Below, piece after piece: positions 9,537 through 33,245 of a stretch of 64,000 nucleotides of DNA (positions are counted from its first letter, which is position 1; every line of letters starts with the position of its first letter). A model generated the notes under the pieces. That model was given only the letters and a program-made list of their open reading frames with translations, searched no databases and was not told where the DNA came from. The DNA comes from Brachybacterium subflavum. GTDB taxonomy: Bacteria; Actinomycetota; Actinomycetes; Actinomycetales; Dermabacteraceae. Location of the stretch: NCBI RefSeq assembly GCF_009299795.1, contig NZ_VIGP01000004.1, positions 124,001-188,000 of the forward strand. Reading direction: 5' to 3'. The position numbers and the translations under genes are program-made.

Positions 9537-9628
9537 ACAGCCCTCGGGGGCGGTGCACGGCGGCACCGGTGCTCTCAACACTTCACAACGGATCGTCCGG
9601 CACGTACCTGCCGGTGGAGGGAATCACC

Positions 9629-10708
<1,080 letters not shown>

Positions 10709-28757: not shown

Positions 28758-29165
28758 ATGATGCGCACACTCATGACCTCGAAGATCCACCGCGCGACCG
28801 TGACCCAGGCCGACCTGCACTACGTCGGCTCGGTGACGATCGACGCGGCGCTGATGGACGCCGCCGGGATCCTCGAGAACGAGCAGGTCTCGATCGTGGA
28901 CGTCACCAACGGCGCGCGGCTGGAGACCTACGCGATCACGGGCGAGCGCGACAGCGGCGTCATCGGCATCAACGGGGCGGCCGCGCATCTGGTGGTCCCC
29001 GGCGACCTCGTGATCATCATCGCCTACGGCCTGTTCGACGGGCAGGAGGCCGCCGGGCACCACCCTTGCGTGGTGCACGTGGACGGCGCGAACCGCGTGG
29101 TGAAGGTGGGCGACGACCCCGCGGAGCCCGTGCCCGGCATGCCCGACCAGCGCACCGGCCGCTGA
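28758..29165 (+). CDS. panD: Aspartate 1-decarboxylase (pyruvoyl-dependent)
   Basis: Makes beta-alanine for pantothenate/CoA synthesis. The precursor self-cleaves between Gly24 and Ser25 in [12 protein letters not shown]; Ser25 becomes the pyruvoyl group. Other conserved parts are [24 protein letters not shown] and [18 protein letters not shown]. The start [11 protein letters not shown] aligns residue by residue with other PanD proteins, fixing the first of two ATGs at 28758 (135 aa). GAGAAT lies 7 nt upstream as a weak -10, with GGGAGA as a possible ribosome site. panB/panC are not in the window. Confidence 0.95.
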
Positions 29166-29188
29166 GCCCCGCACGGGTGAGCTGAGCC

Positions 29189-30115
29189 GTGACAGGGGTC
29201 CTCTCCGGGTTCTTCATCGTCTGGTGCCTGATCGCGATCGGCTGGATCGTCGGACGCACGGGAGTCCTCGGCGAGCAGGGGCGCTTCGTCCTGAACCGCA
29301 CCACGTTCTTCCTGGCCTCGCCCTGCCTCGTGCTCACCTCCCTGCTCGAATCGGACCTGGGGCAGGTGCTGTCCACGCCGATGCTCATCGCCGGGGTCTC
29401 CGGTCTCCTCTCGGGCGGGCTGCTCCTGCTGATCATCCGTGTGCTCACGAAGCGCCGCGGAGCCGAGCTCGTGGTCACCGCGATCAGCGGCTCCGTGGTC
29501 AACGGCGCGAACATGGGCTTCCCGATCGCCGCGTACGTCCTGGGCGACACCTCGCACGCGCTGCCCGTGATCCTCTTCCAGCAGGCGATCTACACGCCGC
29601 TGTACCTGTTCGTGCTGCACGCCGTGACCACGAAGATGCGTCCCTCCCCCGCGGGCGTGCTGCGCAACATCGCCTCGAACCCGACGATCGTGGCCGCCGC
29701 GGTCGGGATCGTGCTCGTCGTGTGCGGGGTGAAGCTGCCGGAGGTGATCCTGCAGCCCTTCGGCTCGATCGCGGACATGGCGATCCCCGCGATGCTGCTG
29801 GCCTACGGGATCTCGCTGATGGGGTCGGCGCCGCTCGCCAAGGACGACGGGTACCGCGGGCTGATCGCGATCGCCACCGTCTTCAAGCTCGCCGTGATGC
29901 CCGTGATCGCCCTCGGCCTGGGACTGCTGCTCGGACTCGACGGGCACGATCTCTTCGCGGTCGTGGTGATGGCCGCGCTGCCGACGGCGCAGAACGTGTT
30001 CGTCGCCGCCTCCCAGTACAAGGCCGCCGAGAACCTCGCCCGCGACACGGTGCTGCTGACGACGGTCGGCACCGTGATCACCCTGCTGATCGTCTCCGGC
30101 GTGATGAGCGCGTGA
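29189..30115 (+). CDS. AEC-family (auxin efflux carrier-like) permease
   Basis: 308-aa integral membrane protein with about ten hydrophobic segments, arranged as two five-helix repeats. It opens with VLSGFFIVWCLIAIGWIVGR and contains the family's conserved N-x-x-FP turn in VNGANMGFPIAAYV, the second-repeat LPEVILQPFGSIADMAIPAMLL segment and LPTAQNVFVAASQY. AEC carriers export or import small organic anions such as malate; the substrate here is not evident. It starts with GTG 23 nt after panD and may be co-transcribed with it. Confidence 0.85.
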   Translation: MTGVLSGFFIVWCLIAIGWIVGRTGVLGEQGRFVLNRTTFFLASPCLVLTSLLESDLGQVLSTPMLIAGVSGLLSGGLLLLIIRVLTKRRGAELVVTAISGSVVNGANMGFPIAAYVLGDTSHALPVILFQQAIYTPLYLFVLHAVTTKMRPSPAGVLRNIASNPTIVAAAVGIVLVVCGVKLPEVILQPFGSIADMAIPAMLLAYGISLMGSAPLAKDDGYRGLIAIATVFKLAVMPVIALGLGLLLGLDGHDLFAVVVMAALPTAQNVFVAASQYKAAENLARDTVLLTTVGTVITLLIVSGVMSA

Positions 30116-30125
30116 GCGGGTCCTC

Positions 30126-30155
30126 CGTGACCCCGGCGACGGGTCGCGATAGGAT
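30126..30155 (+). promoter_or_regulatory. Promoter of the leuS leader transcript
   Basis: GTGACC at 30126-30131 (4 of 6 to TTGACA), an 18-nt spacer, and TAGGAT at 30150-30155 as -10. The predicted start falls at the GTG of the leader peptide, 6 nt after the -10, so the leuS mRNA begins with the leader codons. Confidence 0.6.
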
Positions 30156-30161
30156 CGCCTC

Positions 30162-30188
30162 GTGGCTCGTTCGCTCCTGCTTCCGTAG
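30162..30188 (+). CDS. Leucine leader peptide of leuS (8 codons)
   Basis: GTG GCT CGT TCG CTC CTG CTT CCG TAG encodes (f)M-A-R-S-L-L-L-P. Three consecutive Leu codons sit directly before the end, and a rho-independent terminator lies 60 nt downstream, before leuS. This is the layout of a classical ribosome-mediated attenuator: shortage of charged tRNA-Leu stalls the leading ribosome at codons 5-7 and shifts the RNA fold away from the terminator. Classical leuS attenuators have been predicted in Streptomyces, which supports the reading. The ORF has no Shine-Dalgarno and appears leaderless. Confidence 0.75.
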   Translation: MARSLLLP

Positions 30189-30274
30189 CCGCGCCGGACA
30201 TGCGTCCGCCCCAGCCGTCGGCCCCGGGGACCGGACACCGACGCGGCTCCCCTCGCCTGTGCGGGGGTTTTTTT
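30187..30274 (+). terminator. leuS attenuator: competing stems and rho-independent terminator
   Basis: Terminator: arms 30250-30256 (CCCTCGC) and 30261-30267 (GCGGGGG) with one T-G pair, loop CTGT, then seven T (30268-30274); this is the only such U-tract hairpin I see in the window. Upstream, AGCCGCGCCGG (30187-30197), immediately after the leader stop codon, can pair with CCGACGCGGCT (30238-30248) next to the terminator, with one mismatch; CGGAC-ATGC-GTCCG (30195-30208) forms a local hairpin that excludes this pairing, and GTCGG (30217-30221) can also reach CCGAC at 30238. I could not fold the alternatives, so which stem is the antiterminator remains open. Confidence 0.72.
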
Positions 30275-30326
30275 GTGCCGGAGCGGGCACGGGCCCCAGG
30301 ACCACCACCGAGAAGGACAGACATCC

Positions 30327-33245
30327 ATGAGCGAGGCACCCTTCCGCTACACGGCCGAGATGGCCCGGAGCATCGAGGAGCGCTGGCAGAAGCGCTGGGA
30401 CGAGGACGGCACCTACGACGCCGTGAACCCGGTGGGACCGCTCGCGGACGGCACCGCCCCCGCGGACCTGCCCGAGAAGATGTACATCATGGACATGTTC
30501 CCCTACCCCTCGGGGGTGGGGCTGCACGTGGGCCATCCGCTGGGCTACATCGCGACCGACGTGATCGCCCGCTACCAGCGCACGCTGGGCAGGAATGTGC
30601 TGTACACGATGGGCTACGACGCCTTCGGCCTGCCCGCCGAGCAGTACGCCGTGCAGACCGGCACGCACCCGCGCACCACCACCGAGGCGAACATCGCCAA
30701 CATGCGCCGCCAGCTGCACCGCCTGGGTCTGAGCCACGATGCGCGCCGCTCCTTCGCGACCACGGACCCCGAGTTCGTGAAGTGGACGCAGTGGATCTTC
30801 CTGCAGGTCTTCGACTCCTGGTACGACCCGTCGGCTGCCAACGCCGACGGCGTGCGCGGGCGCGCCCGCCCGATCGTCGAGCTCGTCGAGGAGCTGCGCA
30901 CGGGCGCCGTCGATCCCTTCGCGCTGGCGGAGCGCCAGGGCATCGCCCTGCCCGAGGACTGGGCGGGCCGCAGCGCCGAGGATCTGGCGGGGGCCTCCGA
31001 GACGGAGATCCGCGACCTCGCGGAATCCTTCCGCCTGGCCTTCATCTCCGAGACGCCCGTGAACTGGTGCCCGGGGCTGGGCACCGTCCTGGCGAACGAG
31101 GAGGTCACGTCCGAGGGCCGCTCCGAGCGCGGCAACTTCCCGGTCTTCCAGCGCACGCTGCGCCAGTGGAACATGCGCATCACGACCTTCGCCGACCGCC
31201 TGCTCGAGGACCTGGACCGCGTCCAGTGGCCCGAGGCCGTGCGCTCCATGCAGCGCAACTGGATCGGCCGCTCCCACGGCGCCCAGATCGCCTTCGGCAT
31301 CGAGGGCCGCGACGGGGACGCCGCGGGCTTCGAGGTCTTCACGACCCGGGCGGACACCCTGTTCGGCGCGACCTTCTGCGTGCTGGCCCCCGAGCACGGC
31401 CTGCTGGCCGACGCCGACTCCCTGCCGGAGGCATGGCCCGAGGGCACGAGGGACGCCTGGACGGGCGGCGCCGCGAGCCCGCGCGAGGCCGTGCGCGCCT
31501 ACCAGCAGCGCGCCGCCGCGGCGGGCGAGGAGGACCGCACCGCCGAGGACCGTGAGAAGACCGGCGTGTTCACCGGCCTGTTCGCCGTGAACCCCATGGA
31601 CGGACGCCGCCTGCCCGTGTTCACCGCGGACTACGTGCTCACCGGATACGGCACCGGGGCGATCATGGCCGTCCCCGCGGAGGACGAGCGCGACTTCGCC
31701 TTCGCCGACCGCTTCGAGCTGCCGATCATCCGCACCGTCCAGCCTCCGGCCGACTTCGAGGGCGGCGCCTGGACCGGCGAGGGCGCGAAGATCAACTCGC
31801 GGAACGACGAGCTGGACCTGGACGGCCTGGACAAGGACGAGGCCAAGCGCCTGGCCACCGAGTACGCGACCGCGAAGGGCTTCGGCCGCGCCCGCACCAC
31901 CTACCGTCTGCGGGACTGGCTGTTCTCCCGCCAGCGCTACTGGGGCGAGCCCTTCCCGATCGTCTACGACCCCGCCGATCCGGAGACGCCGATCGCGCTG
32001 CCCGAGAGCATGCTGCCCGTCGAGCTGCCGGAGGTCACGGACTTCTCCCCGAAGACCTTCGACCCGATGGACGCCGAGACCGAGCCGCAGACCCCGCTCT
32101 CGCGCGCGACCGACTGGACGCACGTGACGCTGGACCTGGGCGAGGGCCCCAAGGAGTACCTGCGCGAGACGAACACGATGCCGCAGTGGGCCGGGTCGTC
32201 CTGGTACCAGCTGCGCTACATCGACCCCTCGGACGCCGCCCACGCGGTCGAGCCGGACAACGAGCGCTACTGGATGGGCCCGCGCCGTGAGGGCGACGTG
32301 GGCGGCGTCGACCTGTACGTCGGCGGCGTCGAGCACGCCGTGCTGCACCTGCTGTACGCGCGGTTCTGGCACAAGGTGCTGTTCGACCGGGGTGTCGTCT
32401 CGAGCCAGGAGCCCTTCCACCGCCTCATCAACCAGGGGTACATCCAGGCCTTCGCGTACACCGACGCGCGCGGCATGTACGTCCCGGCCGACGAGGTCGT
32501 CGAGGAGTCCGACGGGACCTTCACCCATCGGGGCGAGAAGGTCTCCCAGGAGTACGGCAAGATGGGCAAGAGCCTGAAGAACGCCGTCACCCCGGACGAC
32601 ATGTACGACGAGTACGGGGCCGACACCTTCCGCGTGTACGAGATGTCGATGGGCCCGCTCGAGGACTCCCGCCCGTGGGAGACCCGCGCCGTGGTCGGCT
32701 CCCAGCGCTTCCTGCAGCGCCTGTGGCGCCTGGTCGTGGACGAGGAGTCCGGCGAGCTGCGCGTGAGCGAGGACCCCGCCGACCTGCCCACGAAGCAGGC
32801 CGTGCACCGCACGATCGACGGCGTGGCGCGCGACATGGAGACCTTCGGCTTCAACACCGCGATCGCGAAGCTCATCGAGCTGGTCAACCAGCTCACGAAG
32901 TCCGGGTCCTCCCCCCGAGAGGCCGTCGAGCCGCTGGTGATCATGCTGGCGCCGTTCGCGCCGCACCTGGCCGAGGAGCTGTGGTCGCGCCTGGGCCATG
33001 AGGGGACGGTCACGCGCGAGCGCTTCCCCGCGGCAGATCCCGACCTGGTGAAGGCCGACGCGGTCACCTGCGTGGTCCAGATCAAGGGCAAGGTCCGCCA
33101 CCGCCTCGAGGTCGATCCCGAGATCGGCGAGGACGCCCTGCAGGAGGCCGTGCTCGCCGAGGCGCGGGTGCAGGAGCTGATCGGCGACGCCGAGATCCGC
33201 AAGATCATCGTGCGCGCACCGAAGCTCGTGAACATCGTCGTCTGA
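30327..33245 (+). CDS. leuS: Leucyl-tRNA synthetase
   Basis: Class I synthetase charging tRNA-Leu, with editing. HIGH-type motif in [17 protein letters not shown], editing (CP1) domain with [19 protein letters not shown] and the T-rich region around [10 protein letters not shown], and KMSKS as [14 protein letters not shown]. 972 aa, the long actinobacterial form with insertions near residues 165-240. The start at 30327 follows GAAGGACAG; the frame is open 54 nt upstream but that lies in the leader. Expression is probably governed by the leucine attenuator immediately upstream. Confidence 0.97.

Follow-up and report, generated by a model that had tools for sequence, protein, structure and literature searches.

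In the trp-type attenuator of enteric bacteria, the ribosome on the control codons decides on termination, with the antiterminator and the terminator sharing a strand. In actinomycetes, attenuators have been predicted before the leucyl-tRNA synthetase gene leuS of Streptomyces avermitilis and Streptomyces coelicolor, according to the accessible text of Seliverstov 2005. The 2021 reannotation of Streptomyces lividans TK24 (PMC8079986), in its accessible part, places before leuS the leader peptide leuL2 (MRAVRLLLSEPR), which has a leaderless transcript, with a hairpin and a U stretch after it; seven of the eight leader peptides of that work are called leaderless. For leuS leaders outside Streptomyces, no literature was found in a search that mostly excluded subscription papers, and leuS is not named in the accessible text of a survey of premature terminators (PMC2965389).

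Leader peptides of other actinomycete genes offer further points of comparison. The reporter of the Mycobacterium tuberculosis ilvB1 leader rises upon inhibition of IlvB1, a rise that is abolished when the control codons are changed to Ala, and a mutually exclusive terminator and antiterminator are proposed for it (PMC13236596, accessible text). For S. coelicolor, the accessible portion of PMC1262725 reports control-codon changes that were without effect for ilvB and had an unclassical effect for leuA, and it also describes the LEU element of leuA, with a pseudoknot and Leu codons pairing with the ribosome binding site of the gene. The mycobacterial leaderless polycysteine attenuators (termed so in the title of Canestrari 2020) resemble the locus treated here in that a leaderless leader peptide—putatively so in our case—would sense an amino acid; they differ in that this amino acid is cysteine, in being termed translation attenuation in the available part of PMC13236596, and in having no conserved terminator hairpin in what is accessible of the 2005 analysis.

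Here, we discuss the leuS upstream region of Brachybacterium subflavum, contained in a contiguous stretch of 64,000 nucleotides that was analysed as a whole (“the window”). This region is, with good confidence, a leader-peptide transcription attenuator of leuS, and its leader ORF would start right where the mRNA does. A leaderless leucine attenuator before leuS is supported; it is not new, since the Streptomyces leuS case had been predicted in 2005, and a leaderless leuL2 of S. lividans followed in 2021 (PMC8079986, accessible text), by which an earlier note on this DNA, made from the sequence alone, was anticipated in the novelty that it implies for the leaderless leader peptide. What we describe belongs to an attenuator that is already known, but it is spread more widely and does not fold as the textbook has it.

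Architecture of the leuS upstream region

The elements of the locus are, in window coordinates:

29189–30115, + strand: membrane transport protein gene (Pfam Mem_trans), upstream neighbour of leuS on the same strand
30127–30132, + strand: weak -35-like element GTGACC, 17 nt 5′ of the -10, as read from the sequence
30150–30155, + strand: -10 element TAGGAT (TAnnnT), gapless in a 30-row genus alignment
30162–30188, + strand: leader ORF GTG-ARSLLLP-TAG, from sequence and translation
30174–30182, + strand: control codons CTC CTG CTT, the last of which (CTT) is rare
30187–30197, + strand: region 2, 5′ arm of the 2:3 helix (inverted repeat, 91%; covariation), overlapping the leader stop codon
30198–30237, + strand: variable loop with its own hairpin predicted by folding; its length differs among species
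30238–30248, + strand: region 3, 3′ arm of the 2:3 helix (inverted repeat), ending 1 nt 5′ of the terminator stem
30250–30267, + strand: terminator hairpin of 7 bp, loop CTGT
30268–30274, + strand: T7 tract TTTTTTT, as read from the sequence
30327–33245, + strand: leuS, leucyl-tRNA synthetase of 972 aa (domain match), the putatively controlled gene

Several readings of the earlier note hold. TAGGAT at 30150–30155 is separated from the GTG at 30162 by a spacer of 6 nt, and the ORF beginning there (GTG GCT CGT TCG CTC CTG CTT CCG TAG) comprises eight codons plus stop, ending with Leu-Leu-Leu-Pro-stop. The hairpin with the 7-T tract, said to be unique, is the sole terminator-like site in 29000–31500 (one found, 0.3 expected), and apart from the T run at 30268, the entire 64 kb contains no stretch of at least six T or six A. 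The gene that follows is indeed leuS, as the domain search found the LeuRS editing and anticodon-binding domains in its product. The spacing typical of leaderless transcripts, with the -10 about 6–7 nt 5′ of ATG or GTG, is found in the window and conserved in the genus; judged from this spacing, the predicted transcript start is the G of the GTG at 30162, i.e., the transcript would be leaderless. A strict sigma-70 promoter scan of 29000–31500 found no promoter. The composite of TAnnnT, a spacer of 6 or 7 nt, RTG, one to six codons and LeuLeuLeu occurs once in the window with both strands scanned, and in none of 20 first-order Markov windows.

The 114-nt leader fold is not in excess of shuffled sequences in its stability (z −0.84), and the window's own minimum-energy fold pairs the ORF start with the ORF end and not the 2:3 helix. 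Rfam 15 over the window at gathering score matched no T-box; its only match there is an msiK RNA (RF01747, 60 bits) at 9570–9629. Over the leader, there is a sub-threshold Rfam match only, on the opposite strand, and a search of four related loci (L081, L056, L197, L040) gave no match.

The likeness to the Streptomyces leuS attenuator comprises the gene, the leucine run (MRAVRLLLSEPR there, MARSLLLP here), the leaderless start as it is predicted here, and the hairpin with the U tract. In contrast to leuL2, the window peptide is shorter, and its stop lies one codon after the Leu run, inside region 2.

Distribution of the leader

The leader is present in all 37 readable Brachybacterium leuS upstream regions; a 38th genome of the genus was left out, as its leuS match, located at a contig end, covers the protein only from residue 415. 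An alignment of 30 genus sequences has no gap in the -10, in the six-base spacer, in the start codon or in the Leu codons, while the DNA farther upstream has diverged. The -10 spacing is 6 nt in 36 of the 37 members and 7 nt in one. Just 3′ of the T tract, 32 of the 37 genus leaders carry CATGTC or CATGCC, a motif that is absent from the window itself.

For the wider survey, 161 loci were considered, in which 145 leuS genes were placed by tblastn; one of them (L080) is without upstream DNA, which leaves 144 actinomycete leuS upstream regions, and two more have less than 300 nt. Of the 16 unplaced loci, two (L002 and L003) are not leuS; the others are 14 leuS regions which were searched by covariance model only, with one match (L103). 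Many genomes of the order and the class are outside the 144, as they gave no match to LeuS at the strict E-value. A strict rule—TAnnnT 5–7 nt 5′ of ATG, GTG or TTG, three consecutive Leu codons and a distance of at most 260 nt from leuS—retrieved leaders in 75 of the 144 regions. TAnnnT at 5–7 nt being part of that rule, the spacing is 6 in 63 and 7 in 12 of these leaders; they start with GTG (48) or ATG (27).

A covariance model built on 43 sequences (alignment A1, 43 of the 72 sequences with a terminator defined below) adds 7 of the other 69 regions and raises the total to 82 of 144, counts which do not represent independent events since the sequences are related; the remaining 62 regions have neither a strict leader nor a model match. 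At the conserved position, the seven, like L103 from outside the 144, carry a single Leu codon or two in succession. In one family member (L034:1221–1402), the loop of the 2:3 helix is enlarged by an insertion of about 75 nt. When the model was run against 296 genomes of the class, 107 had a match at E 0.01 or better, representing 39 of 105 genera; one genome (G130) has a chance match only, so that the reach of the element is up to 106 of 296 genomes and up to 38 of 105 genera. Of 20 match places that were examined, 15 precede leuS, two precede ilvB (L197, L200) and three (L198, L199, L203) were discarded as chance matches inside unrelated sequence. Most of the checked leuS genes downstream of model matches are of a LeuS type that is only about 40% identical. 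The genome of the window has one significant match (E 7.4e-16); a second copy was rejected, since the next match (L163, E 0.31) lies in a stretch without a Leu leader.

Altogether, the Leu codons, the -10, the RTG spacing and the terminator are kept in the genus and beyond, which is the conservation that the reading of the earlier note calls for. One locus (L081) encodes a peptide identical to leuL2, has TACCCT 6 nt before its ATG and is matched by the model. Given that one alignment and one covariance model cover both the window and this locus, the element is homologous to that of Streptomyces; the Leu-run ORF, the hairpin with U tract and this homology place it among the actinobacterial leuS leader-peptide attenuators.

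The 2:3 helix and its position at the terminator

In the 43-sequence alignment, 92.8% of the cells of the 2:3 helix (30187–30197/30238–30248) are paired. Sliding the partner by 1–3 columns reduces whole-structure pairing from 88.3% to 53.7% or less, and none of 500 shuffles attains the observed values for paired cells, for doubly changed cells or for the covariation score. Compensating changes, which the earlier note had proposed to look for, are found on both sides in 5 of the 11 helix pairs, but 59 of the 500 shuffles had at least as many doubly changed pairs (8), and 227 at least as many further pair types (19). RNAalifold proposed nine of the pairs of the 2:3 helix on the same alignment. 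The first helix pair (30187–30248 in the window) is formed in only 22 of the 43 sequences, the window's own strain has a C–A mismatch within the helix, and the terminator arms are out of register across clades in this alignment.

The position of the helix was examined in 72 sequences, i.e., the 75 strict leaders minus L027, L042 and L133, which have no terminator by rule. Counted from the first of the final three Leu codons, its start lies 13–14 nt downstream in 69 of the 72. At its other end, with overlap allowed, the gap to the terminator is 0, 1 and 2 nt in 27, 37 and 7 sequences, respectively, the one exception being L054, the terminator of which was misplaced by the search; overlap occurs in none. 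Since the best helix also ends within 0–2 nt of the terminator in 46% of shuffled sequences, such an abutment is not improbable for a single sequence, though over the whole set it is closer than chance would give. The helix scores 28.7 versus 15.8 in shuffles, with 46 of the 72 sequences above all of their 40 shuffles and 26 not.

These data bear on the textbook attenuator, in which the antiterminator shares a strand with the terminator. This choice was implied by the earlier note, and Seliverstov 2005, in its accessible text, describes the leuS attenuator of Streptomyces as classical and assigns to its Fig. 4 an antiterminator hairpin and a terminator hairpin. The open helix search, however, found no strand shared with the terminator in any of the 72 sequences, overlap being permitted, and the search of 31 sequences for a partner of either terminator arm, upstream or downstream, using duplex energies, returned none that was better than shuffles (mean z −0.60 to +0.41). 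The strongest tendency was that of the terminator 3′ arm towards the leader (mean z −0.60), with 10% of the sequences at p 0.05 or less. For this family, a trp-type arrangement is, therefore, highly improbable; from the alternative stems of the earlier note, the stem 30187–30197/30238–30248 remains, whereas no conserved partner competes with the terminator.

Masked folding with ribosome positions was done for 20 sequences. Among the sequences listed, the terminator forms with or without a ribosome (P 0.61–1.00), with the exceptions of L006 (0.00) and L024 (0.11) for a ribosome at the stop; hence, thermodynamics alone reveals no switch. With the 2:3 helix formed and the second terminator arm not yet made, the first arm is mostly free in those listed, being paired at 0.00–0.21 (L070 0.41, L072 0.49). 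If region 2 is masked, this first arm pairs upstream with a probability of 0.15–0.85, again among those listed, which is no better than in shuffles.

Two features of the terminator may be added. Its loop (30257–30261 and relatives) is CTGYG in 63 of the 72 leuS leaders, which is unusually conserved for a loop and could possibly mark a pause site of RNA polymerase. In L027, L071, L072 and L133, the hairpin is without a clear T tract, though the leader and the 2:3 helix are kept.

Leucine codons and leader stop

The run of three Leu codons closes with CTT in 70 of the 75 strict leaders; CTT is likewise the last Leu codon in all eight extra model matches, several of which lack the first Leu codon. 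CTT is rare: of the 5970 Leu codons counted in 79 leuS genes, it accounts for 52, and of the 74 in the leuS of the window, for none; it may have been retained for slow decoding or for its bases. In the window, CTT (30180–30182) lies 7 nt 5′ of the helix, and the distance is 7–8 nt in the family.

The place of the leader stop is less uniform. In 53 of the 75 strict leaders, the stop follows 0–5 codons after the Leu run, and in 21 of the 75 it comes 13–14 codons later. In the genus, 21 of the 37 leaders are without an early stop—differing in this from the window peptide—and run 13–14 codons past the Leu run into the loop hairpin (e.g., L008, L010, L016, L024, L087). By geometry, a ribosome at such a late stop would leave region 2 uncovered. 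Toeprint positions, which are general knowledge, entered into this estimate of the ribosome edges. They were combined with a ribosome footprint of 26 nt, centred on the codon, which is quoted in the accessible text of PMC13236596.

A conserved leaderless small ORF followed by a constitutive terminator, with no leucine response at all, would agree with the S. coelicolor ilvB codon mutants that were without effect (PMC1262725, accessible text). It would leave unexplained, however, why a Leu run with the rare CTT is held at a fixed distance from a covarying helix and why 15 of the 20 checked model matches precede leuS in many families, and we regard it as improbable.

Proposed mechanism

With ample charged tRNA-Leu, the ribosome would pass the Leu codons and leave, and transcription would end at the T7 terminator; with scarce charged tRNA-Leu, it would stall on the Leu codons, and leuS would be read through. 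For this organism, we infer the transcript start, ribosome stalling, termination and the direction of the response, the last by analogy with the M. tuberculosis ilvB1 leader reporter.

For the inner working of the switch, we prefer a helper helix, a proposal for which belief and doubt are nearly balanced, with doubt slightly the heavier. The 2:3 helix would stack on the short terminator and aid it, and a ribosome stalled at CTT would cover the first part of region 2, so that the helper could not form; the lone 7-bp hairpin would then terminate poorly. This version is favoured because of the late stops in 21 of the 37 genus members, because it is the last Leu codon that is kept constant, and because a gap of 0–2 nt suits stacking. 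That neither terminator arm had a competing partner in the 31 sequences also speaks for it. Downstream of gyrA of Mycobacterium smegmatis, two tandem hairpins are stated to terminate better than single ones (PMC8355165, accessible text). Against the helper version, a GC-rich 7-bp hairpin with T7 may work unaided, and the published ilvB1 model has an antiterminator and no helper helix.

The same helix could act in the opposite sense, as a steric antiterminator. A ribosome at the first Leu codon would leave region 2 just free, and the 2:3 helix, abutting the terminator base, would prevent zipping of the terminator in the exit channel of RNA polymerase, with read-through into leuS. The helix start at 13–14 nt past the first Leu codon (69 of 72) approximates the edge of a stalled ribosome, a ribosome at the stop would by geometry cover region 2 in the 53 of 75 leaders with an early stop, and the published mycobacterial ilvB1 model likewise has stalling lead to antiterminator formation. 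In 21 of the 75 leaders, however, the stop 13–14 codons later leaves region 2 amply free; several extra members are without the first Leu codon, yet CTT, 7–8 nt from the helix, is kept in all eight; moreover, the reading depends on a putative steric effect. We consider it somewhat unlikely and retain the helper helix as the preferred version.

Relation to ilvB leaders and implications

The actinomycete ilvB attenuators (ilvL; M. tuberculosis ilvB1) are similar to the leuS element in having a short ORF with control codons and a helix that extends from just past these codons to the terminator base. They differ in their Ile/Val/Leu codons and, in many cases, in a longer terminator loop with an inner hairpin, and TAnnnT at leaderless distance is found in few (5 of 42). 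Of 50 ilvB upstream regions examined, 49 have a terminator by rule, and in 37 of the 49 the best helix ends from 1 nt inside to 2 nt before it; this is the freer test of the layout, since abutment was required as a condition when a leader was found in 42 of the 50, which, hence, does not test it. The helix starts 6–8 nt after the last Ile/Val/Leu codon in 28 leaders, and this last codon is CTT in 20 of the 42. The ilvB leader of the window's own genome (L327:359–465; MQTIILVLPERG) has TAnnnT 7 nt before its ATG and contains a GC helix that is immediately followed by a terminator.

Like the enteric trp-type attenuator, the leuS element would leave the decision to a ribosome on the control codons; unlike there, helix and terminator abut and share no strand. 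It is conceivable, with the balance tilting against it, that actinomycete leaders of leuS and ilvB make up an attenuator class of their own with reversed logic, without an antiterminator, in which the stalled ribosome would itself block a helper helix that has to stack on a short terminator for termination to work, and in which CTT, 7–8 nt before the helix, would serve as a ruler. Such a class, if true, could explain the unclear control-codon results in S. coelicolor; that the abutting layout is perhaps the reason why those leaders behaved unclassically is a guess.

The switch predicted in Streptomyces is, hence, extended to as many as 38 of the 105 actinomycete genera sampled, with 20 match places checked singly, and a covariance model is supplied for an element that was unrecognised by the Rfam searches of the window and four related loci. 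Added to what was known are the rare CTT as the last Leu codon, a covarying helix that abuts the terminator without a shared base, and the same layout in many ilvB leaders. Together, they make it testable how attenuation works in actinomycetes, given the unclassical ilvB and leuA leader mutants of S. coelicolor (PMC1262725, accessible text). In B. subflavum, the leader most likely switches leuS on at leucine shortage.
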